This document shows positions 10,755-34,756 of a stretch of DNA of 34,756 bases, one piece after another. The stretch is from Candidatus Peribacteria bacterium. GTDB taxonomy: Bacteria > Patescibacteriota > Gracilibacteria > Peribacterales > Peribacteraceae. The position numbers and the translations under genes were made by a program. Numbering within the stretch: the first letter of the stretch is position 1; each line of letters starts with the position of its first letter. The DNA is taken from assembly GCA_943350395.1 (NCBI GenBank), contig CALRAD010000011.1:1-34756 (forward strand), written 5' to 3'. Below the pieces are notes generated by a model that did not search any database, had not been told where the DNA came from, and saw nothing but the letters and a program-made list of their open reading frames with translations.

Positions 10755-13700
10755 TTAGAAACCCAGCGGTGACAGAAGCTTGCTTGCAGCAGCGGAACCT
10801 GCCGCGAGAATGGTCATGAGGGTTGCGTAGAAGATGGCACCGAATCCAGAATCTTCATTTGCTCCTGTTTTCTGTCCGGGTTTGATGGCAGTCACCTGCG
10901 ACTTGTCCGTAGTTGAGGCATAGAAGTTTCGGTCATTGCTACCCGTCTGCGGGAGGATCACCGGAGGATAGAAGGTCGGAGGCGTTACTTGAGGAGGAGT
11001 GACGACTGGAGGATAGAAGACGGGAGGTGTTGGTGGATTATACGGTGGGTAATAGGGAGGCGGCGTGTATGGCGGATAATAAGGAGGAGGCGTGTAGGGT
11101 GGAACATATGTCTGCCCAGTGATCGTCGTGCTGTCTGTCGACGTCTGGCCGTTCACTGTTACGATATTTTGGACCACCGTATTATTGCTGACGTCGCTTC
11201 GAACCTGTGCATCGAGTGTGATCGTGCGACTGCTGTTCGCCGCAACGGTCAGGTTCGTCCATGTCACGTTCTGTCCGTTGATCGTTCCGCCGTCACTGAC
11301 GGTGAGAATCGTGAGTCCGTACGGTACGGTATCGCTTACCGTGAGGTTGCTTGCAGCGGTACTTGAGTTATTGGTGAGAATAATCGTGTAATGGAGCGTA
11401 TCTCCAGCTGTTGCATTCGTACGGTTATCCGTTTTGTACACCGTCAGATTCGTAGCCTCCGGACAGACGAGCGTTGTGGTTACCTGGCTTGTGTTGTTCG
11501 CGGCATTCGAATCGGACGTTGCACTCGAGACTGTTGCTGTTGCCTGCGTTGTGGTCGACGTACAGTTGCTGATCGTCGGCACGGAGAAGGCGAAACCAAC
11601 AATGAGAATCTGACCGACAGTCATATTGCCCAGTGCACAGTTCAGTGTGCTACTGACAAGTGTGCATATTGCTCCTGCTGCGGAGACATAGGTAAGACCT
11701 GCTGGGACAGGGATGATGAGGCTCCCTGATTGTGCCGTATTCGGTCCGTTATTCGTAATTGTTGCGTTATAGACCGCATTCGTTCCTCTATTGCTTGAGC
11801 TCGGACCGGTGAGTATTACCTGCATATCCGCGATCTGCGATGTCGGACAGGTGAGAGTCGTATTTGCGGAGCTCGAGTTATTCGTCTGATTTAGCTCGGC
11901 GGTACCGCTTGTGATCGTCGCGGTGTTTGTGACTGTGGCTGCTTGTGAGCACGGAGTGACTGTCTTTCCGGTGAAGTTGAGTACGATCGTCGCACCGATG
12001 CTTGGGGCGAGTGTTCCAACCAGACACTGAATCTGTGTCGTATTGAGGACGGTACAGGTGACACCTGTCGGAGCAGTGAACGAGACGTAGTTCAGGTCGG
12101 CAGGAATGACATCTGTGACAATGACACCCGTTGCCGTTCCCGTTCCTATATTGGAGGCGACAATGCTGTAGCTCACTGCGCTGCCTCTTACAGCCGTCTG
12201 CGTACCGGTCTTCAAAATGCTCAGATCAGGCGTGTTTACGGTCGGGCAGAGAATGGCGGTGCTCACCGTGCCACTCGTATTGTTGGACAGAATTGGGTCA
12301 CTGAGTTGGCTGACGACCGTTGCGGTGTTCAGGGCAACTCCTGTGGTACAGCTTTGCATGGTCGGGACGTTGAAGGCGATGATGAAGTTCACAGACGAGC
12401 TTGGGCCGAGAGCGGAGAGACACACGATGCTCGCGCCGCTTTGGCTGCAGCCGGCGCTCGATGCGGATTGGTTGAAGGTGAGATTTTGGCCCGACGGGAT
12501 CTGATCAACAACTTTCACGTTTGCGGGAGTCAGGGACGGACCGAAGTTGGTGACTGAGAGGCTGTAACTGAGGACTTGTCCGCGTGTCACCGTTGTCGGT
12601 CCTGTTTTCTGGATGAGGAGATCTGCCTGCTGGATGCACGTGACTGAGGTTGCAACAATCTGGCTCTGATTATTCACCGGATTCGGATCGGTCGTCGATG
12701 TGCTCACCGATGCCTGGTTGATGATTGTGCTGTTGCACAGGGCATTTGCAGGAACGTTGAATGCAACCGTTACTGTCGCACTCTGACCATTTGTCAGTGT
12801 GAGGTTATTGCAGAGAATGTTACTGCCGTTCTGGATACAGTTACTAGAACTCTGAGAAGCATTGAACGTGAGACCTGCAGGGATCGGATCGGCAAGCGTC
12901 ACATTTGTTGCGGTACCCGGGCCTGCATTCGTTGCAGTCAGCGTGTAGAGAGCTACACCTCCCTGAAGGACTGTTGCAGGTCCGCTCTTACTGATCGAGA
13001 GATCTGCTGTAAGAGGAGGAGCACATGTGACGGTTGTGCTTACGGTCTGACTTTGGTTATTGGCAGGATTCGGATCGGTCGTCGATGTACTGACAGATGC
13101 AGCATTCAGGATCGTACTGTTACAAGCGGCATTGGCAGGAACATTGAATGCAACGGTGACGCTTGCAGACTGACCACTTGTGAGGGTCAGGTTATTGCAG
13201 AGAATGTTACTGCCGTTCTGGATACAGTTACCGGAACTCTGAGAAGCATTGAACGTGAGACCTGCAGGAATCGGATCGGCAAGCGTCACATTTGTTGCGG
13301 TACCCGGACCGGCATTTGTTGCAGTCAGTGTGTAGAGAACAACACCTCCCTGAAGGACTGTTGCAGGTCCGCTCTTCGCAATCGAGAGATCCGCAGTCAC
13401 CGTCGGACAAGTGAGGGTCGTCGTGACATTCGACTGGTTATTGCCGGTACTCGGATCGGCGACAGATGACGTAATCGTTGCCGTATTGGTGACAGTTGTC
13501 TGCGAACAGTTCTGGCTTGGAGCAAGTGTTGCGAAGGTGACGGAGACGATCGGACTCGAAAGACCTGAGAGAAGGCTTGGGATCGTACACTGCAGCGTGT
13601 TTCCGGTGACCGCACAGTTTACGCCCGAGGATGATACGAACGTCAGTCCTGCAGGAATCTGATCATTGATGACAACATTTGTTGCAGTTGAAGGACCGAA

Positions 13701-16700
13701 GTTGGTGGCGATCAGTGTGTAGGTAATCTGGTTTCCTGCAACGATCTGTGCAGGACCAAATTTGGTGATGGAGAGGTCGGCGCTGGCACTCGCTGGACAC
13801 GTAAGTGTTGTCTGGAATTGGCTCGAGTTGTTGCCGGAGTTTTGGTCAGCAGTGCTGCTCTGGATGGTTGCCGTATTTGTCACGCTTCCTTGCGTGCAGT
13901 TTTGGTTGAGCGTTGCGTTCAAGGTAATCGTGAACGTCTGTGACGTGCTCGGTGTGAAATTTCCAAGAGAGCACTGCACCTGCTGGCCGACTTGGCTGCA
14001 GGCTCCCGTCGACGATACGAAGGTCATTCCCGCTGGAATCGGATCTGTGATCGTTACGTTTGTGGCGGTCGATGGTCCGTTGTTGCTTGCAACAATCGTG
14101 TAGACGAGATTGGTGCCGAATTGGGCGGTCTGAGGACCGATTTTGACGATCGAAAGATCAGACGTATTGACGACCGGACAGTTGACGCTCGTATTCACCT
14201 GGCTCTGATTGTTGTTCGCATTCGGATCGTTGTCACTCACAACCGATACGGTGTTTGTTGCGACGGAAGGCGTGCATGTTTGATTCACGGGAACATTGAA
14301 GACAATCGTGATCGTAAGCGGTTGCCCTGCGGTCATGCTTCCGATGAAGCAGGCGACTTCATTTCCGCTGTTGATCAGAAGACAGCTGGCTCCGGTTGCG
14401 GAAACGAGGCTGAAGCCGTTTGTTGCTGATACGAGATTCGAGATATTGTCATGAATGACGACGTTCGTTGCAGTTGCCGGACCGTTGTTGATGACAGAGA
14501 GCGTATAGGTCACGGTGCCTCCGCGAGTCACGGATGCAGGTCCGGTTTTCAAGATCGACATATCTGCAGTGACAACGGGACACGTCACCGTTGTCTGTAC
14601 GGTTTGGCTTTGGTTATTATTCGGATTCGGATCAGTCGAGGACGTGCTCACCGATGCCGTATTTTGGATCGTCGCATTGCATGTGAAATTCTGAGCAACG
14701 TTGAACGCAATCGTGACTGTCGCAGACTGACCATTCGTAAGAGTCAGGTTGTTGCACAAAATATTACTGCCGTTCTGGATACAGTTTCCGGAGCTCTGCG
14801 ACGCATTAAACGTCAGTCCCGGAGGAATCGCATCCGCAAGCGTCACGTTATTGGCCGTTGCAGGTCCTGCATTCGTCGCAGTCAGTGTGTAGCTGACAAC
14901 ACCACCCTGCAGAACAGAACTCGGTCCGCTCTTTACAATCGAGAGATCCGCATTGATGACAGGGCATGTTGCTGTTGTCTGTACGGTCTGGCTCTGATTA
15001 TTCGAAGAATTCGGATCGGTCGTCGACGTACTGACAGATGCCGTATTGAAGATCGTACTCTGCGTGCAGTTTTGGATCGTCGGCACGTTGAAGGCAATCG
15101 TGACTGTTGCCGACTGACCATTGGTGAGAGTCAGGTTGTTGCACAAAATATTGCTGCCGTTTTGGATACAGTTTCCCGAACTTTGTGACGCATTGAACGT
15201 GAGTCCCGAAGGAATCGCATCCGCAATCGTCACGTTGTTTGCCGTGTTCGGTCCCGCGTTGAATGCTGTCATCGTGTAACTCACGATGCCGCCGCGAACG
15301 ACGGAGAGAGGACCCGATTTCACAATCGACAGATCGGCAGTCTGACACGTCACCGTGGTCTGTACGGTTTGGCTTTGGTTGTTATTGGAGTTTGGATCAG
15401 TGGTTGATGTACTCACGGATGCAATGTTCTGGATCGTCGTATTGCATGTGAAATTCTGAGCAACGTTGAAGGCAATCGTGACTGTGGCAGACTGACCATT
15501 CGTGAGAGTCAGGTTGTTGCACAAAATATTACTGCCGTTCTGGATACAGTTTCCGGAGCTCTGCGACGCATTGAATGTCAGTCCCGGAGGAATCGCATCC
15601 GCAAGCGTCACGTTATTGGCTGTTGCAGGTCCTGCATTCGTCGCAGTCAGTGTGTAGCTGACAACACCGCCTTGCAGAACAGAACTCGGTCCGCTCTTTG
15701 TGATCGACAAATCTGCGGTGATACATGCCACTGCCGTCTGCACGGTCTGGCTTTGGTTGTTGCCTGCATTTGGATCAGTGGTTGAAGTACTGACTGATGC
15801 CGTGTTGAAGATCGTACCGTTACAGGTAAATGAGTTTGAGACATTGAATCCAAGAATCACGCTGAGGCTCTGTCCATTTGTCAGTGAGAGGTTACTGCAC
15901 ACGACATTGGAACCGATTAACTGGCAGCCTGCAGAAGTTTGAGACGGGTTGAACGTAAGTCCGGATGGAACCGGATCGGTGATCGTGACACCGTTTGCGG
16001 GGCCGGGACCGGCATTCGTTACCGTGATCTGATAGCTGATGAGTCCACCTTGCGTTACAGAACTCGGTCCATTTTTTGTGATCGACACATCTGCACTTGG
16101 ACATGTCACGGTCGTCTGCACAGTCTGACTTTGGTTGTTTCCTGAATTCGGATCGGTCGTTGAAGTGCTTACCGAAGCCGTGTTGAGGATCGTGCTTTGC
16201 GTGCAGTTTTGGATCGTCGGCACGTTGAAGGCAATCGTGACTGTTGCTGACTGACCATTGGTAAGAGTGAGGTTATTGCAGAGAATATTATTGCCATTCT
16301 GAATACAGTTCCCCGAACTTTGTGATGCATTGAATGTGAGTCCCGAAGGAATCGCATCCGCAATCGTCACGTTATTGGCCGTGTTCGGTCCCGCGTTGAA
16401 GGCAGTCATCTGGTAACTCACGACGTTGCCTTGCTGCACGGAACTTGGTCCGCTTTTCGTCATTGAAAGATCGGCAGTCGGTGTCGGACATGTCACCGTT
16501 GTCTGCACTGTCTGGCTTTGGTTGTTGCCTGCATTCGGATCAGTGGTTGAAGTACTGACAGATGCAATGTTCTGGATTGTTCCGTTACAGGTAAATGAGT
16601 TCGAGACGTTGAGTGCAATCGTGACTGTTGCCGACTGGCCATTCGTGAGAGTCAGGTTGTTACAGATAATACTGTTGCCGCTCTGGAAACAGTTCCCAGA

Positions 16701-18398
16701 ACTCTGTCCTTGGTTGAACGTGAGTCCTCCGGGAATCGGATCAGTAATCGTGACGTTATTTGCTGTCGCAGGTCCCGCATTGAACGCAGTCATCTGGTAA
16801 CTCACGACGTTGCCTTGCTGCACGGAACTCGGTCCGCTTTTCGTAATCGAAAGATCTGCAGTCACGACAGGAGGGCATGTCAGTGTTGTCTGTACCGTAT
16901 TACTCTGATTATTCGATGAGTTCGGATCGGTGGTGGAATTTGAAATTGATGCAACGTTTTGGATGGTAGTCTGGTTGCAGCTCTGAACCGTCGGTACGTT
17001 GAATGCGATCTGGAAAGTCGAGCTCTGTCCTGCGCTCAAACTGAAGTTATTGCACACAACGTTGTTACCGCTCTGGAAACAGTTCCCGGAACTCTGTCCT
17101 TGGTTGAACGTGAGTCCAGATGGGATTGGATCCGTGATGACGACGTTCGTTGCAGAATCCGGTCCTGCATTGAAGGCTGTCACGCTATAGATTGCAACGT
17201 TCCCGCGTAGTACGGAACTCGGCCCGCTCTTCTGGATCGAGAGATCTGCGGTCAGTGCCGGACAGGTGATTGTGGTACTTACTGTCTGGCTTTGGTTATT
17301 TGAGGAGTTTGGATCGGTCGTTGAACTCGAAATGGATGCCGTATTCTGGACCGTTGTCTGGTTGCAGCTCTGAACCGTCGGTACGTTGAATGCGATCTGG
17401 AAGTTCGAGCTCTGTCCTGCGCTCAAACTGAAGTTATTGCACACAACGTTGTTTCCGCTCTGGAAACAGTTCCCGGAACTCTGTCCTTGGTTGAAGGTTA
17501 GTCCCGATGGGATAGGATCCGTGATGACGACGTTTGTTGCAGTCGTGGGACCGCTGTTGAATGCCGTGACGGTGTAGACTAAGACATTGCCTCGCTGGAT
17601 CGATGAAGGTCCTGACTTCTGGATAGAGAGATCGGCTCCCGGAGGAGGAGCACAGAACGTAGTGCTGACCGGTGCGCAGCGTAGTCGCACGACGGAGTCT
17701 GTGGCATCCGGATCGGACGACACCTGAGAACCGAAGGAGTCATACGTCACTCCGACTGCGACGCTTCCGCTTGGACAACTGATACTTTGGATGGTCGTTG
17801 GTACTTGGCTTCCGTGCGGCAAAAAGTCTCCTGGTTGGCGTGTTTCCACCTCATCTGTACCGATACCGTCGCATGAAATCGGATTACATCCGATTCCTTG
17901 CCCGTCCATTGCGTCTTGTCGTCCTCCTGATGCATTACTCTCAAGGTCGGCCCAGTACACAGTCGCAACGGCATTGTTACCACTACAGGTGGGTTGTACG
18001 AGGTCAGTGGCACGGCGTGGATTGCTGTCGATGTCGCCATTGGCTAGATACGAGCCTTGTGATCCAAGATTTCCTGTCGTTGCATTAATTGGTTTGCACG
18101 CAATCGTAAGGCCATCGGTACTATCATTGCCTGCCTGGATACCGAGATACGCAATACTCGTGATGACTTGTCCGGACGGACAGTTCAATGTCGCTCCTGC
18201 AGGCCTAGAGACGCTGTTTCCATTTTCGTTTGTTTGGCTGTCAAAACTGTCAGGCGTGTTAAATGCGGTTCCGAGAGCCGGTCCTGCTGCAATTGATTTC
18301 TGAAGAAGGGGCTCGAATGACGGGATGAGACCGGCTTGTACTTGCGTCATCAGCATTCCCGCGAGTACCAGTGAGGATATCGTTTTACGGAATTCCAT
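10755..18398 (-). CDS. Giant cell-surface protein with 17 DUF11 repeats and LPQTG motif
   Basis: This 2547-residue protein begins with a signal peptide (cleavage after about residue 22, TQVQA). An unrecognised Cys-containing N-terminal region follows (about 45-255). Then come 17 DUF11-type beta-sandwich repeats of about 115-130 residues, most opening with ADLSI.KSGP and containing the NAGP.TA..V.. core and paired cysteines. Several are almost identical, for example repeats 6 and 8, which implies recent duplication. After them lie a Pro/Tyr-rich stretch (about 2415-2480), LPQTG at 2482, a 35-residue spacer and a membrane helix (about 2520-2540). DUF11 arrays are common in long surface fibres and adhesins. 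Anchoring could be by the helix alone or by a sortase-like enzyme; none is encoded here. Promoter at 18444-18472. Confidence 0.9.
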   Translation of the reverse strand: MEFRKTISSLVLAGMLMTQVQAGLIPSFEPLLQKSIAAGPALGTAFNTPDSFDSQTNENGNSVSRPAGATLNCPSGQVITSIAYLGIQAGNDSTDGLTIACKPINATTGNLGSQGSYLANGDIDSNPRRATDLVQPTCSGNNAVATVYWADLESNASGGRQDAMDGQGIGCNPISCDGIGTDEVETRQPGDFLPHGSQVPTTIQSISCPSGSVAVGVTYDSFGSQVSSDPDATDSVVRLRCAPVSTTFCAPPPGADLSIQKSGPSSIQRGNVLVYTVTAFNSGPTTATNVVITDPIPSGLTFNQGQSSGNCFQSGNNVVCNNFSLSAGQSSNFQIAFNVPTVQSCNQTTVQNTASISSSTTDPNSSNNQSQTVSTTITCPALTADLSIQKSGPSSVLRGNVAIYSVTAFNAGPDSATNVVITDPIPSGLTFNQGQSSGNCFQSGNNVVCNNFSLSAGQSSTFQIAFNVPTVQSCNQTTIQNVASISNSTTDPNSSNNQSNTVQTTLTCPPVVTADLSITKSGPSSVQQGNVVSYQMTAFNAGPATANNVTITDPIPGGLTFNQGQSSGNCFQSGNSIICNNLTLTNGQSATVTIALNVSNSFTCNGTIQNIASVSTSTTDPNAGNNQSQTVQTTVTCPTPTADLSMTKSGPSSVQQGNVVSYQMTAFNAGPNTANNVTIADAIPSGLTFNASQSSGNCIQNGNNILCNNLTLTNGQSATVTIAFNVPTIQNCTQSTILNTASVSTSTTDPNSGNNQSQTVQTTVTCPSADVSITKNGPSSVTQGGLISYQITVTNAGPGPANGVTITDPVPSGLTFNPSQTSAGCQLIGSNVVCSNLSLTNGQSLSVILGFNVSNSFTCNGTIFNTASVSTSTTDPNAGNNQSQTVQTAVACITADLSITKSGPSSVLQGGVVSYTLTATNAGPATANNVTLADAIPPGLTFNASQSSGNCIQNGSNILCNNLTLTNGQSATVTIAFNVAQNFTCNTTIQNIASVSTSTTDPNSNNNQSQTVQTTVTCQTADLSIVKSGPLSVVRGGIVSYTMTAFNAGPNTANNVTIADAIPSGLTFNASQSSGNCIQNGSNILCNNLTLTNGQSATVTIAFNVPTIQNCTQSTIFNTASVSTSTTDPNSSNNQSQTVQTTATCPVINADLSIVKSGPSSVLQGGVVSYTLTATNAGPATANNVTLADAIPPGLTFNASQSSGNCIQNGSNILCNNLTLTNGQSATVTIAFNVAQNFTCNATIQNTASVSTSSTDPNPNNNQSQTVQTTVTCPVVTADMSILKTGPASVTRGGTVTYTLSVINNGPATATNVVIHDNISNLVSATNGFSLVSATGASCLLINSGNEVACFIGSMTAGQPLTITIVFNVPVNQTCTPSVATNTVSVVSDNDPNANNNQSQVNTSVNCPVVNTSDLSIVKIGPQTAQFGTNLVYTIVASNNGPSTATNVTITDPIPAGMTFVSSTGACSQVGQQVQCSLGNFTPSTSQTFTITLNATLNQNCTQGSVTNTATIQSSTADQNSGNNSSQFQTTLTCPASASADLSITKFGPAQIVAGNQITYTLIATNFGPSTATNVVINDQIPAGLTFVSSSGVNCAVTGNTLQCTIPSLLSGLSSPIVSVTFATLAPSQNCSQTTVTNTATITSSVADPSTGNNQSNVTTTLTCPTVTADLSIAKSGPATVLQGGVVLYTLTATNAGPGTATNVTLADPIPAGLTFNASQSSGNCIQNGSNILCNNLTLTSGQSASVTVAFNVPANAACNSTILNAASVSTSTTDPNPANNQSQTVSTTVTCAPPLTADLSISKSGPATVLQGGVALYTLTATNAGPGTATNVTLADPIPAGLTFNASQSSSNCIQNGSNILCNNLTLTNGQSATVTVAFNVPANALCNSTIINQASVSTSTTDPNPVNNQSQIVATSVTCIQQADLLIQKTGPTTVTRGQVLSYSLSVTNFGPSLTPANVKVVDQIPSGQNLTFNQSASSAGCSQSGASIVCLSALGPSSSVNFIIAFNVPTMQSCTTGVALNTATVVSQLSDPILSNNTSGTVSTAILCPTVNTPDLSILKTGTQTAVRGSAVSYSIVASNIGTGTATGVIVTDVIPADLNYVSFTAPTGVTCTVLNTTQIQCLVGTLAPSIGATIVLNFTGKTVTPCSQAATVTNTATITSGTAELNQTNNSSSANTTLTCPTSQIADMQVILTGPSSSNRGTNAVYNATITNNGPNTAQSGSLIIPVPAGLTYVSAAGAICTLVSSTLNCALGNMTVGQILIVGFAFSVPTISNCTSTTTQATATVSSATSDSNAANNTSQVTTTLVCPEATNLTVYKTDNRTNATAGDTLHYTIILTNNSSTAASNLTVSDTVPYGLTILTVSDGGTINGQNVTWTNLTVAANSSRTITLDAQVRSDVSNNTVVQNIVTVNGQTSTDSTTITGQTYVPPYTPPPYYPPYTPPPYYPPYNPPTPPVFYPPVVTPPQVTPPTFYPPVILPQTGSNDRNFYASTTDKSQVTAIKPGQKTGANEDSGFGAIFYATLMTILAAGSAAASKLLSPLGF

Positions 18399-29363: not shown

Positions 29364-29648
29364 CTATTCGATTCCGAGTACATCTCTGTGCGTTCCTGTA
29401 CGCAGGAGCAGTAAAAGCAATCGATCATTGTCTTTTCTGTACATCAGTAACCAGTCAGGAGCGATGTGACATTCGCGAGTGCCTTTCAATTGTCCCTTTA
29501 GTTCATGGTCCCAGTATTGTGCAGGCAGTGGCTTATTTGTATCGAGTAAGTCAATGACTGTCTCAAGTTTTGAAAGCTGATAACCGGATTTCTCTAAACG
29601 GCGAAGATCTTTTCTGAATCGATTCGATGATATTCGTTGATACTGCAT
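29364..29648 (-). CDS. YafQ-family mRNA interferase toxin
   Basis: This 94-residue protein of the RelE/YafQ superfamily cleaves mRNA on the ribosome in known relatives. Residues H48, H61, D65 and H87 line up with the histidines and aspartate needed in E. coli YafQ (in DHELKG, ECHIAPDW and RTGTHRD). It overlaps the antitoxin stop by one base (TAATG), which couples their translation. Confidence 0.9.
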   Translation of the reverse strand: MQYQRISSNRFRKDLRRLEKSGYQLSKLETVIDLLDTNKPLPAQYWDHELKGQLKGTRECHIAPDWLLMYRKDNDRLLLLLLRTGTHRDVLGIE

Positions 29649-29917
29649 TACTCGCTTAGAATATCTTCAAACATTTCCTTGGTGGTAGCATAACTTTTTC
29701 CGTGTTTTTTCGTCCAAGCAAGATCTTTGAGTATTTCCGCTTCTGCTTCAGGCGTGTAACCGTTTTCCGTAAGCACCTGAAAAGGAATCCCTTTCTTTGC
29801 GATAATCTGTACAAGATAAATATTAATTGCTGTACTTAAGTCCAAGCCAAGCTTCTTGAGGATCCGCATGGCGGTCTTCTTCGTTTTTTCTGCAGTGCGG
29901 ACTTGGATGGTGGTCAT
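29648..29917 (-). CDS. RelB/DinJ-family antitoxin
   Basis: This 89-residue protein opens with a ribbon-helix-helix segment (TIQVRTAEKTKKTAMRILKK, then LGLDLSTAINIYLVQI), the DNA-binding and dimer part of RelB/DinJ antitoxins. The acidic C-terminal half (residues 55-89) would wrap the toxin. It is expected to neutralise the YafQ toxin and repress the operon. Confidence 0.88.
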   Translation of the reverse strand: MTTIQVRTAEKTKKTAMRILKKLGLDLSTAINIYLVQIIAKKGIPFQVLTENGYTPEAEAEILKDLAWTKKHGKSYATTKEMFEDILSE

Positions 29918-29965: not shown

Positions 29966-30577
29966 CTACTCCTTCCATTCAAGCTCCGCTCCTATCTTTC
30001 GTTCCATGCGATCTGCACGACGAAGGTTCTTGATCTGCGCACCGGAGACGACAGGGTAGTGCCGCACCTGATCAATGTATTCGGGGATGTAGTGCACGTC
30101 TTCTTCTGCTGTCATCCAGCCACGAGAATCAAATCTCGAGAGATCGACGGCGCCCGAATATGACCGCAGAATCTTGTCGCCATTCGGTGCCGTGTATTCA
30201 TGAAAGTACGACATCGCGAGCTCATGAAGCGACCGGTACACAGGGTCTCTGTAGCGCACCGTTCCATGATTTGTCTTGCTAATCGCACCGTAGCAGCCGA
30301 ATTTTCGGAAGACCGCAACGACATGATCATCATCTGCGTCGGTCACCTTCAGGTCCATCACAAGGGGCTTCTCTCCTGCAATCCTGAGTGCGAGGGCTGC
30401 GAGCATCGCGCCTTCCATGCAGTGTGCCGTACGCTCACTGAGCACACGCCTCGGTGACATGTATGTCTCGCCGTTCTTCTCAAAATTCATCGGAAGCGAA
30501 TCGAGAAAGTCCTGGATTTTCTCGGGGGTGCGTAGCTTCCTGAGGATTTGGAGTTCCTCTGGGTGAAGGTCGAACAT
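29966..30577 (-). CDS. Transglutaminase-like (cysteine protease fold) protein
   Basis: I infer this fold from residue pattern only. The 203-residue protein has a Cys at the start of a helix (HCMEGAMLAALALRIAG, about residue 53), a His in a strand (DDDHVVAVF, about residue 85) and a later acidic/Asn position, the order seen in transglutaminase-like cysteine enzymes. No signal peptide is seen, so it is probably cytoplasmic. Target and function are unknown. TATACT (30585-30590) ends seven bases before the ATG at 30577. It lies upstream of the toxin-antitoxin operon on the same strand but with its own promoter. Confidence 0.55.
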   Translation of the reverse strand: MFDLHPEELQILRKLRTPEKIQDFLDSLPMNFEKNGETYMSPRRVLSERTAHCMEGAMLAALALRIAGEKPLVMDLKVTDADDDHVVAVFRKFGCYGAISKTNHGTVRYRDPVYRSLHELAMSYFHEYTAPNGDKILRSYSGAVDLSRFDSRGWMTAEEDVHYIPEYIDQVRHYPVVSGAQIKNLRRADRMERKIGAELEWKE

Positions 30578-30944: not shown

Positions 30945-32090
30945 TCATCTAAAAAAATCCTTCGCCCTTTCATAGAAAGTATCGGAGTCAATTCTCTGTA
31001 CTGTAAAGACGTCCCTCAGCTCACTCTTCAGCAGAAGCCTGTACACAGCTCGAAACATTTCTGGTTTCATCTCTCTAAAATTTTTTTCATGCTCTATACC
31101 CAGTTCCTCGACTGCAAGCCGTATATCTTCCTGCCGAACTGAATCGTCAAAAAGACCGGTGAGAAACGAGAGGGCAACTTCTTTTACGATTGCGCTTGCC
31201 GCAGTCGAGTGTTGAATGAAATTGAGCTCGGCAACTCTTTTTGCAAGATCACACACGGCATCGCGAAGAAACTGGCTGCCATACGCCATGGGCGTTTCCA
31301 TTGTACGATAATCAACCACAGTATCCGTATCACTCACAACAAGATGATCACTTTTTTGGTTATACAGGAAATTATCAGCAGTCGACGAATGCCTGCCAAG
31401 GCCTGCATGTGTGGCCATCTTTCTTTTTATTCTTCCGATCCTCTGCACAAGGTCATAATGTGTATCCAGTTCATCGTTATCTAAGGTGTCATGACATTTC
31501 CGTACACGTAGAGAGCTTTCACTGTCACCGTAATTGGTGAGAATCGTACTCAGCGGACGATAGAGTACGTCATGTCTCATAACGGAAAACCCCGTTCTAT
31601 ACCCATTCGCATCCACTTCTTTGTTCTGCCGTTCATCCAAAAATTCTCCCCAGAGCAGAGCATTGAATCCAATAGTACTGATATGTAATCTCGTTTGAGC
31701 CACAAACTCCATTTCGGCCGCCTCGACGCGCAGACTATTGTATGCTTTCGGTTTCGAATGGTTATGGAAAAAAGTCAGATCGGGTGTCAGGCCTATGTGC
31801 TTGATCTCTGGTACGAAATGTTCGTTTGGTTGCGGAGAATAAAATTCCAAGCCTTCGCCGGAACTGGATTGCAATCCGCCGGCACCTTTTACCTTTAAAG
31901 CAGGTAAATCCAAATCTGGCTCGGGTAGATACAACGTCCTGCCTCGTCCGGACAGTGTTGAGCACGCAAATTCACGTGTTCCGCTGATAAGATCAAGAAG
32001 GTATCTTGCTTGCTCCTCTGAAACCTCTTCGGCATTACTTTCTCGTATTCTTGCCGGTCTCGATATATTTTGTGCTTGGATCAGACTCAT
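30945..32090 (-). CDS. Unknown protein, possibly kinase-like
   Basis: I do not recognise this 381-residue protein. It has no signal peptide or membrane helix. Some features recall a protein-kinase-like fold: ALKVKGAGG (about residues 64-72, a possible Lys strand), EAAEMEFV (about 123-130, a possible helix Glu), then H234 and N240 in GRHSSTADNFLYN and D254/D256 in VVSDTDTVVDY, spaced like the catalytic loop and metal-binding segment of aminoglycoside-kinase-like enzymes. The Asp of HxD is missing, so this is tentative. The C-terminal 100 residues look helical. I start it at ATG 32090, since ATG 32111 is too close to the -10 box. It is divergent from the repeat protein; bases here are richer in A/T than in most of the window. 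Confidence 0.5.
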   Translation of the reverse strand: MSLIQAQNISRPARIRESNAEEVSEEQARYLLDLISGTREFACSTLSGRGRTLYLPEPDLDLPALKVKGAGGLQSSSGEGLEFYSPQPNEHFVPEIKHIGLTPDLTFFHNHSKPKAYNSLRVEAAEMEFVAQTRLHISTIGFNALLWGEFLDERQNKEVDANGYRTGFSVMRHDVLYRPLSTILTNYGDSESSLRVRKCHDTLDNDELDTHYDLVQRIGRIKRKMATHAGLGRHSSTADNFLYNQKSDHLVVSDTDTVVDYRTMETPMAYGSQFLRDAVCDLAKRVAELNFIQHSTAASAIVKEVALSFLTGLFDDSVRQEDIRLAVEELGIEHEKNFREMKPEMFRAVYRLLLKSELRDVFTVQRIDSDTFYERAKDFFR

Positions 32091-32112
32091 TGGCTTATGT
32101 AAAAAGTACATT

Positions 32113-32301: not shown

Positions 32302-32330
32302 TTGACATTATCTGTATTTAATGTTATTAA
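32302..32330 (+). promoter_or_regulatory. Promoter of the repeat-protein gene
   Basis: TTGACA (32302-32307), a 17-base spacer and TATTAA (32325-32330) end eight bases before ATG 32339. The in-frame ATG at 32321 lies inside the promoter and so is not the start. Confidence 0.5.
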
Positions 32331-32338
32331 TAACAAGT

Positions 32339-34459
32339 ATGGGAATCGAAGGATTGGAAATCCAAGGGTTTGATAATTACTTCCAATTACTTGGCAGAAT
32401 GGCAAGAGCGGCTAGTCAGTTTGAAGGAAGAGGAAAAGAGGAAAGTAAAATTTTGCAGGTTGGTATTGCAATTGAAGGTTGGATCACGAAAAAGTTTCCA
32501 CAGGAAAAAGGTTCTGCCCTGCAACGAGAAACTTCTATCAGAGAGAAAATAGCATTACTGATAGGCTCAAGTCCTGCGAGTATCTCTGATATTTTAGATG
32601 CTGCCTCTAATCACTTTAGGGTTATTTTGCAAACAGATGCAGATTCTCAAGCACTTATTAAAAGATTGAAACTGCCACATCAAGAAATTGAGAGTGTGAT
32701 TTTGCCTCCAGGCAAGGAGCTGCGTAAAGGTGAATCGAATCAGCACCAAGAAATAAACAAGCCAGTCATACCACGCTTTCAGTATTTGATTGCTGAATTG
32801 CAAGCACATGGAATTCATGCAGATGACCTGATCATTACAACAGGAATTCTAAATCCTAACCAATTGCGGACGCAGACATATATTCTTGTGGAAGTGCCTT
32901 CGATACAAAGAGAGGTGTTAGTTTGTAACCAGAGAGGTGAAGCTACCTTTGTATCAATGATCCATAGAGGCATGGATGCTTATGCCTCGCATACAAAAGA
33001 AGAATTACAAGAAATGCCAGGTATATTTAAGCTTTATTGTTCTAATCTAGAGATATGGAAAAGTCAGGTAGTATCTCTTCTTCTTTCAGAAGGATATGTA
33101 CAGATCCCCACGGATGCTGATTACCTCTTAACAGTTCGCCAAGAGATTAGTAGGATTACGAATCCGGAAGAATGGATAGGAATGAATACAAAGACAAAAA
33201 GGGAGTTAAGAATTTTGGGGAGTAAATTAAATCTTGTTGCTAAAAAATGCGGAATTGAAGGTAGCGTCAGCGATTCCCATCTAGCACATCTGCGTTTTGG
33301 AGCTTTGATATTTGGCAGAGATAATCCTCATATTGCGGTGCAGCTGGATACAACTGAAGCCGAATTTAGGTTAAGGGAAAGTCTTGGCGATGATCCCGAA
33401 AAATGGAAAGATTTGGTTCGAAGTACAAAAACTTCTGCTGAATGGGTAAAAATGGATACTCCTCAACGTCAATCTTTTTTTCTAGCTGGCTTAGGATTCA
33501 GAGCTTTGTCATTAAAAATGGGGCAGGATCTCAACCCTAGGAAGGAAGAAGAAGATCATCTAAAACTTGGGCTTTTTATTTATGGAGAAACCGATGAAAA
33601 TATTGCTCCGGCAATGGAAATTTTTACCAAAAATAAAAATGCACGAGCGGAACTCGGCAATGATTGCAAAAAATGGGCAACTGCTTTGCAGCTAAAACTT
33701 TCGGCTATGCAATGGCTTTGCATGCCGTACGACGTTAGACCTAAGTTTGAATTTAATGGGTTAGGACTCATTGCGCTGGCGAGAATTTTCGGCCTTAGTG
33801 GTGATCCAGGGCATAATAATGAACTCTATTTGGAATTGGGACATTTAATTTTTGCAGATCCGATATTACTGAAAGCAAAAGAGGAATGTAAAAAAAGACG
33901 TGAAAAACGCAAGCTTATTGAAAAAGAGCCTGCAAAATTAATAGAAGCTATAAAATCAAAGATGACGGCCCACGAATGGATATCAATGAATCAAACCGAA
34001 AGAGCAAATATAAGAGTATTGGACATGGGTTTAGGGAGGATAGGTTCAGCGCTAGGTATAAAAAATGTATGGAGTTCAAGAGAAAACTTTCTCAAGTTAG
34101 GAATAATTATTTTTGGTGAAGATCCTGAGCTACAAGCTGCTTTGGTAGATCCTTCGGCAAATACTTCGGCAAATTATAATCCGGAAGGGGGAGTGTCTGC
34201 ATTTATTACAAGAATTCAGTCTGCCTGCACTGTTGAAAGATGGACTACTTGGCACGACAAAAAAGATCATGAACTTCGTTTTGAAGGCTTTGGTCTGAGT
34301 AGATTAGCTAAGATACTAAAAGTCGAAGGAGATCCCTTCCTATCGAAGCTGGTGAGATTAAAAATGGCAGAGAAAATTTATGGAGCAGGTAATCAGATTG
34401 TTCAACAAGCATTAGTAGATGAAAAACAGCGACTTGGTTTACAGCCACAAAGTAAGTAA
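32339..34459 (+). CDS. Unknown protein with five tandem 88-90-residue repeats
   Basis: I do not recognise this 706-residue protein. It has no signal peptide, membrane helix or cysteine clusters. The N-terminal 270 residues are not repetitive. From about residue 265 five modules follow, each with a conserved Trp: EW at 278, EW at 368, QW at 458, EW at 546 and RW at 634, a period of 88-90. The module reads roughly W..M....r..f...G.gL..lA...G..g, then a spacer, then L.lG..IfG. The middle part (GLGLIALARIFGL, FGLSRLAKILKV) looks like a helix-turn-helix. Stacked modules of this kind could bind DNA or RNA along its length, but this is inference. The gene is richer in A/T than most others and lies just inside the right-hand insertion sequence, consistent with recent transfer. 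Confidence 0.7.
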   Translation: MGIEGLEIQGFDNYFQLLGRMARAASQFEGRGKEESKILQVGIAIEGWITKKFPQEKGSALQRETSIREKIALLIGSSPASISDILDAASNHFRVILQTDADSQALIKRLKLPHQEIESVILPPGKELRKGESNQHQEINKPVIPRFQYLIAELQAHGIHADDLIITTGILNPNQLRTQTYILVEVPSIQREVLVCNQRGEATFVSMIHRGMDAYASHTKEELQEMPGIFKLYCSNLEIWKSQVVSLLLSEGYVQIPTDADYLLTVRQEISRITNPEEWIGMNTKTKRELRILGSKLNLVAKKCGIEGSVSDSHLAHLRFGALIFGRDNPHIAVQLDTTEAEFRLRESLGDDPEKWKDLVRSTKTSAEWVKMDTPQRQSFFLAGLGFRALSLKMGQDLNPRKEEEDHLKLGLFIYGETDENIAPAMEIFTKNKNARAELGNDCKKWATALQLKLSAMQWLCMPYDVRPKFEFNGLGLIALARIFGLSGDPGHNNELYLELGHLIFADPILLKAKEECKKRREKRKLIEKEPAKLIEAIKSKMTAHEWISMNQTERANIRVLDMGLGRIGSALGIKNVWSSRENFLKLGIIIFGEDPELQAALVDPSANTSANYNPEGGVSAFITRIQSACTVERWTTWHDKKDHELRFEGFGLSRLAKILKVEGDPFLSKLVRLKMAEKIYGAGNQIVQQALVDEKQRLGLQPQSK

Positions 34460-34607: not shown

Positions 34608-34756
34608 AGGCTCAAGACTAGTTAAGAGGGGTTTTTCGAATAAGATTTAGAAGTACATTATACACGTTTTCTTGACGATGATTGAATCGCCATTCACATT
34701 CTTTCAGATGGAGATAAAAGGTCTGCTTATGAATGCCCTTGAGACGATGAAGTCGG
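34608..34756 (-). mobile_element. Right end of an IS1595/ISXO2-like insertion sequence (right window edge)
   Basis: Exact reverse complement of bases 1-149. The transposase C-terminus faces into the window and the element extends beyond the right edge. Confidence 0.8.
34618..34755 (-). pseudogene. IS1595-family transposase, C-terminal fragment (cut by the window edge)
   Basis: Identical in sequence to the fragment at 2-139 but on the minus strand: the last 45 codons plus part of the KGIHKQTFYLHLKECEWRFN signature region, ending at TAG (34618-34620). It is cut by the end of the window, not by a visible mutation. Confidence 0.75.

Follow-up and report, generated by a model that had tools for sequence, protein, structure and literature searches.

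A Patescibacteria protein family that appears to exchange whole tandem arrays, putatively nucleic acid binding, behind a constant N-terminal domain

TALE-like repeats are about 33–35 amino acids long and comprise two helices and two hypervariable residues. In TALE proteins, and in the STAR, MOON, and pTERF proteins, a constant flank is joined to a tandem array that varies in length and whose repeats may each contribute to a long target, and the family described here is built likewise. It differs from these four in that whole arrays of unrelated module types appear to be swapped behind one N-terminal domain (N-domain). STAR, MOON, and pTERF are families of other proteins, and CPR bacteria are not mentioned in the main text on them (PMC11417379). 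A sharp border between a conserved and an exchanged part is also seen in HsdS specificity subunits and polymorphic toxins, but here the exchanged part is a tandem array, and we found no modification enzyme or toxin domain. HA repeats (PF03457) are, like the Trp modules described below, tandem Trp-containing helical repeats on SF2 helicases, and CTE_SPB4 (PF13959), a C-terminal extension of DEAD-box helicases, is similarly helicase-linked. Our searches of the literature on CPR repeat proteins yielded no description of a family combining this N-domain with arrays. We regard it as a new family, though of a general kind already known, the modular nucleic acid-binding repeat proteins, with the apparent exchange of whole arrays as its distinctive part.

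The window, that is, the whole stretch of 34,756 bp that was analyzed, is the complete contig C11 of a Candidatus Peribacteria genome of 1.25 Mb in 27 contigs. Its plus strand carries at 32,321..34,459 a gene, single-copy in that genome, for a protein of 712 amino acids consisting of an N-terminal helical bundle, an alpha/beta N-domain, and five Trp modules. The next in-frame ATG, at 32,339, is an alternative start and was the one used in a preliminary description of this DNA; we count residues from the 32,321 start, so that the earlier residue numbers run 6 lower. The gene has a GC content of 0.39 vs. 0.51 for the remaining contig, on which no other stretch of its length falls below 0.47, in agreement with the A/T-rich composition described earlier. 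This composition and the patchy occurrence of relatives fit a recent acquisition of the gene, short of proving it. The neighboring insertion sequence reported earlier was likewise found: the same 149-bp sequence stands in inverted orientation at the two contig ends (34,608..34,756, minus strand, at the contig edge, and 1..149) and recurs on contig C7 (61,176..61,323), as an insertion sequence would. The contig-end repeats are a collapsed insertion sequence, and we take the minus-strand frame at 34,608..34,756 to resemble the C terminus of an IS1595/ISXO2-type transposase. An ORF for an IS200-like transposase (Y1_Tnp; 216..647, minus strand) lies just inside the contig start, and the largest ORF in the window, of 2547 amino acids, is at 10,755..18,398 on the minus strand. 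About 2.4 kb before the gene, the minus strand encodes a YafQ-type toxin and a RelB/DinJ-type antitoxin (29,364..29,917; Pfam E 1.4e-30 and 3.1e-10), and two minus-strand ORFs beside it, of 388 (30,945..32,111) and 203 amino acids (29,966..30,577), have no Pfam match.

The array proved as regular as first described, with five repeats at a period of 88–90 residues. (E/Q/R)W pairs recur at W285, W375, W465, W553, and W641 with spacings of 90, 90, 88, and 88, and each repeat is found by the profile of the other four, a held-out repeat scoring 30.6–44.2 bits and a shuffled repeat at most 13.9 bits (1000 shuffles). Identity among the five is only 17–30%, and matches between single repeats (phmmer) range in E from about 1e-10 up to roughly 0.03. 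Run against the window's genome, a profile made from 20 repeats matched all five modules (E ≤ 1.3e-20) and nothing beyond them. The modules lie on the plus strand at 33,131..33,346 (module 1; profile A3, E 5.8e-23), 33,392..33,616 (module 2; E 2.2e-25), 33,662..33,877 (module 3; E 1.3e-20), 33,926..34,144 (module 4; E 9.9e-23), and 34,199..34,414 (module 5; E 1.2e-22). From 138 instances we derived the consensus PTxEEW(M)xM..xEKxxFxIxGxGLxAIAxxFGIxGNP.s....HLxLGxxIYGED, in which the Trp, L416, I420, G422, and a basic residue at 383 are among the most conserved positions. Trp modules carry an average net charge of +3.4 per 100 amino acids (121 modules) vs. −0.7 for the genes of the window; the array of the 712-residue protein has only a slight positive charge, +6 in 455 residues.

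The five modules share one confident predicted fold. The AlphaFold2 (AF2) model of the full protein has a pLDDT of 86.4 and a pTM of 0.61, which leaves the relative placement of the modules uncertain; module 2 modeled alone (residues 353–441) reaches a pLDDT of 93.3 and a pTM of 0.80. In the full-length model, all five modules have an identical secondary-structure string, with a helix, a short helix bearing the Trp, a third helix, a beta-hairpin, a fourth helix, a ten-residue loop, and a fifth helix in this order, and they are joined by linker helices of 18–21 residues. With the single module as query, Foldseek returned no PDB chain with E ≤ 10, and its best hit to the full-length model had an E of 0.67; a VIA search with the single module gave 11 chains only, with a best Z of 2.4, and a viral structure library contained nothing below E 3. 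Failure to match in Foldseek is not proof that the fold is new.

Among described repeats, a TALE-like unit was considered for the Trp module and rejected on its period of 88–90 residues with five to six helices and a hairpin; compared with TALE-like and related repeat proteins, the Trp module has this greater length and its own predicted fold. The HA model has 64 positions and a pattern unlike that of the Trp module; hhalign gave a probability of 0.3% for a relationship between the two, and PF03457 has no match in the 712-residue protein or in the window's genome. Membership in CTE_SPB4 was also rejected: the protein has no match to it, and the matches to the Trp modules of three relatives (loci L018, L114, and L119; E 1e-5 to 5e-4) are partial and below Pfam's cutoff.

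The N-terminal part is of unknown family, as had been proposed from the letters. It begins with a bundle of five helices (residues 17–116 in the AF2 model; 32,369..32,668, plus strand), for which no meaningful fold match was found, a second look with VIA giving Z ≤ 6.4 for an arrangement that is common. The alpha/beta N-domain follows at residues 124–257 (32,690..33,091, plus strand), where profile A2, which includes the window sequence itself, matches at E 8.9e-53, and it is marked by the motif MMRxxSYxxVEIPRxxRxVLVCNQVGEATFV ... TKEEL. This domain is the constant part of the family. For residues 133–260, VIA pointed to chain q of 7enc (Z 5.5, rmsd 3.1, 93 aligned residues), too weakly to name a fold; this comparison used the full-length model, so that the N-domain fold was barely probed. 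The 712-residue protein matched no family in Pfam, PHROGs, NCBIfam, PADLOC, or the PDB sequences, no nuclease or other effector domain was recognized in Pfam and the other family searches, and the N-domain and module profiles together gave a single PDB match, at E 0.83. Nor does any family model cover the N-domains of the members examined. Searches with the full-length protein (phmmer) did recover relatives, with E down to 1e-79. We define the family by a match to the N-domain profile with tandem modules behind it, and the 712-residue protein has both, with five modules.

Among the relatives, the same N-domain is joined to at least nine different tandem arrays, including HTH, HA, winged-HTH-like, and other modules and one mixed array. 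The 46 proteins of the N-domain tree include 25 with Trp arrays, 6 with Y4, 5 with winged-HTH-like, 2 with "H6" HTH, and 2 with HA arrays, and at least four further array types were recognized by eye from the sequences. HTH_11 passes Pfam's cutoff in the arrays of L139 (E 5.6e-16) and L141 (E 9.8e-07), and L096 contains HTH_3 (E 9e-06). The HA arrays of L109 (E 1.8e-52) and L112 (E 1.8e-14) follow the same N-domain exactly where Trp modules stand in other members. The mixed array of L092/L132 combines Trp modules (four) and Y4 modules (two) in one chain. Profile comparison detected no common origin for Trp, HA, winged-HTH-like, and Y4 modules. At L108 (5436..6989, minus strand) the N-domain is followed by repeats without a Pfam match that are reminiscent of the phage-integrase repeat unit.

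In two pairs of relatives the exchange can be seen directly. The N-halves of L110 and L112 are 71% identical (DNA 75.8% over 767 bp), with a type-5 array behind one and HA repeats behind its counterpart; those of L096 and L099 are 73% identical (DNA 79.4% over 786 bp), with winged-HTH-like modules behind one and another kind of module behind its counterpart. Past the N-half boundary, the best local similarity in both pairs is at the level of shuffled sequence. On the N-domain tree, array type requires at least 13 changes where the minimum is 9, and is thus partly inherited and partly exchanged; array types cluster on the tree, the Trp arrays most of all, which indicates that swapping is occasional rather than frequent. 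This looks like an undescribed family in which a putative nucleic acid-reading part has been exchanged in evolution behind a constant front domain.

Trp modules are also linked to helicases. They are fused to SF2 helicases in three genomes, at the C terminus of the helicase in L116 and L121 and between the DEAD and Helicase_C matches in L119. In two further loci, L025 (7013..11,052, minus strand) and L115 (6797..10,746, minus strand), an SF2 helicase gene is followed by an overlapping gene for a Trp-module protein, a pair conserved in two genomes; the helicase of L025 matches ResIII (Pfam E 1.1e-17), and that of L115 was assigned from its sequence and matching length. The matches of the helicases to PADLOC models (PbeA and others) look like generic helicase matches and were set aside. 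An apparent fusion to a sigma-70 region 4 in L024 (E 0.0011) is below the cutoff and was not used. The idea that the array binds nucleic acid thus gains from association, with HTH_11 and HA arrays on the same N-domain and with SF2 helicases, which makes such binding likely for the Trp array; the helix-turn-helix basis is not supported in the form originally given.

The family is scattered through Patescibacteria. Counting matches that read through TGA codons, 35 of 353 genomes from the class (about 10%) carry the N-domain, as do 13 of 380 genomes in a phylum-wide sample. For the Trp module the counts are 24 of 288 genomes within the class and 7 among the 380 phylum-sample genomes, these 7 all belonging to the same class. 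An alignment scan of genome contigs gave 12 named loci in Candidatus Peribacteria and other Patescibacteria, extending the Trp module to more distant members such as Uhrbacteria; the single-sequence scan of the same kind of contigs was empty. A pattern scan of viral contigs gave no match, and neither did tblastn against 50,697 phage and 72,556 plasmid records. We sought a conserved operon partner or shared neighbors among the examined loci of relatives and found none; the genes stand among ordinary and housekeeping genes such as uvrB, tuf, and a DNA gyrase subunit gene. At L022 (G055:C1:1–14,000), tandem paralogous genes carry Trp-module arrays of up to seven copies and adjoin a Fic-like and an HTH-like ORF, with further paralogs on two other contigs of that genome. 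Short proteins with a reduced N-domain-like part and a single Trp module are encoded at L120 (5382..6155) and L122 (527..1366), in each case immediately preceding two genes that by sequence are miaA-like and recJ-like; they appear to be a version kept vertically in one genus.

We consider it fairly probable that nucleic acid is bound by the array and that the array is what gives the protein its specificity and can be exchanged. The 712-residue protein would then be a cytoplasmic nucleic acid-binding protein in two parts. The C-terminal array of five modules would read or grip a long stretch of DNA, or possibly RNA, module by module, and the constant N-terminal part, the helical bundle with the alpha/beta domain, would provide the shared action or contact a partner, its most likely role being that of a regulator or of a sensor for foreign nucleic acid. 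Over evolutionary time, whole arrays would be exchanged as cassettes with the N-terminal part retained, and we propose that target specificity would thereby change and the action would not. We infer here that the Trp module binds nucleic acid, that its targets are long and composite, and what the N-domain does. Against nucleic acid reading speak the lack of a detectable relative of known function for the Trp module, its predicted fold, unmatched in the PDB by Foldseek, the absence of a profile link to HA, winged-HTH-like, or Y4 modules, the slight charge of the array, and the want of a conserved neighbor that would hint at a pathway. A bolder form of the idea, which we put forward only tentatively, has a widespread Patescibacteria family in which one effector domain is re-aimed by swapping whole arrays of at least nine module types, some of which, like the Trp module, would be new DNA- or RNA-reading folds, with module order maybe forming a code.

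Other explanations assign the array a different nature or the protein a different role. The preliminary description saw diverged helix-turn-helix units in the modules, corresponding to helices 4 and 5; the core pattern GLxALAxxFGVxGNP...HLxLGxxIYG between two helices and the HTH arrays on sister N-domains would suit this, but the ten-residue loop stands where the tight turn of a canonical helix-turn-helix, two helices so joined within a trihelical core, would be expected, no PDB chain matched in Foldseek, hhalign against the winged-HTH-like profile gave a probability of 1.7%, and the protein has no HTH profile match, nor any Pfam family up to E 5. With no match to a Pfam, NCBIfam, PHROG, or PDB family or to a PDB fold, the label is not established for the Trp module, and we regard it as unlikely. 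A somewhat less likely account makes the array a helical rod that holds a partner protein, the other arrays being unrelated adaptors. It draws on the mostly helical modules and their linker helices, the low net charge of the 712-residue protein, and the absence of any matched nucleic acid-binding fold, and is opposed by the clear HTH and HA arrays on the same N-domain and by Trp modules on or beside SF2 helicases.

By analogy with restriction specificity subunits, the protein could serve in defense, its array recognizing phage or plasmid DNA and its N-domain triggering or blocking, with arrays swapped in an arms race. Cassette-like replacement, patchy occurrence, an A/T-rich gene adjoining a repeated element, and the association of the Trp module with ResIII-type helicases all suit such a role, which we nevertheless find doubtful: PADLOC gave no match to the protein up to E 0.01, the loci examined contain no conserved neighbors or defense-island genes, and no nuclease or other effector domain was recognized. 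Least probable of all, and in our judgment quite improbable, is an accessory gene of mobile elements, carried by insertion sequences without a cellular role. The repeated element at the contig end and the A/T-rich composition would allow it, but relatives sit among housekeeping genes, and the searches of phage, plasmid, and viral sequences gave no match.

On the reading of the family as exchangeable nucleic acid binders, its setting is of interest: most regulators have been lost from the ultra-small CPR bacteria, yet roughly one-tenth of the class's sampled genomes retain these long modular proteins. For the Trp module, the confident predicted fold has no counterpart that Foldseek could find among solved structures. 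Should the arrays prove to bind specific DNA or RNA, the family would be a natural system that exchanges whole recognition arrays as cassettes behind a constant domain; new modular binders could be drawn from it, and the evolutionary re-aiming of specificity could be tested on it.
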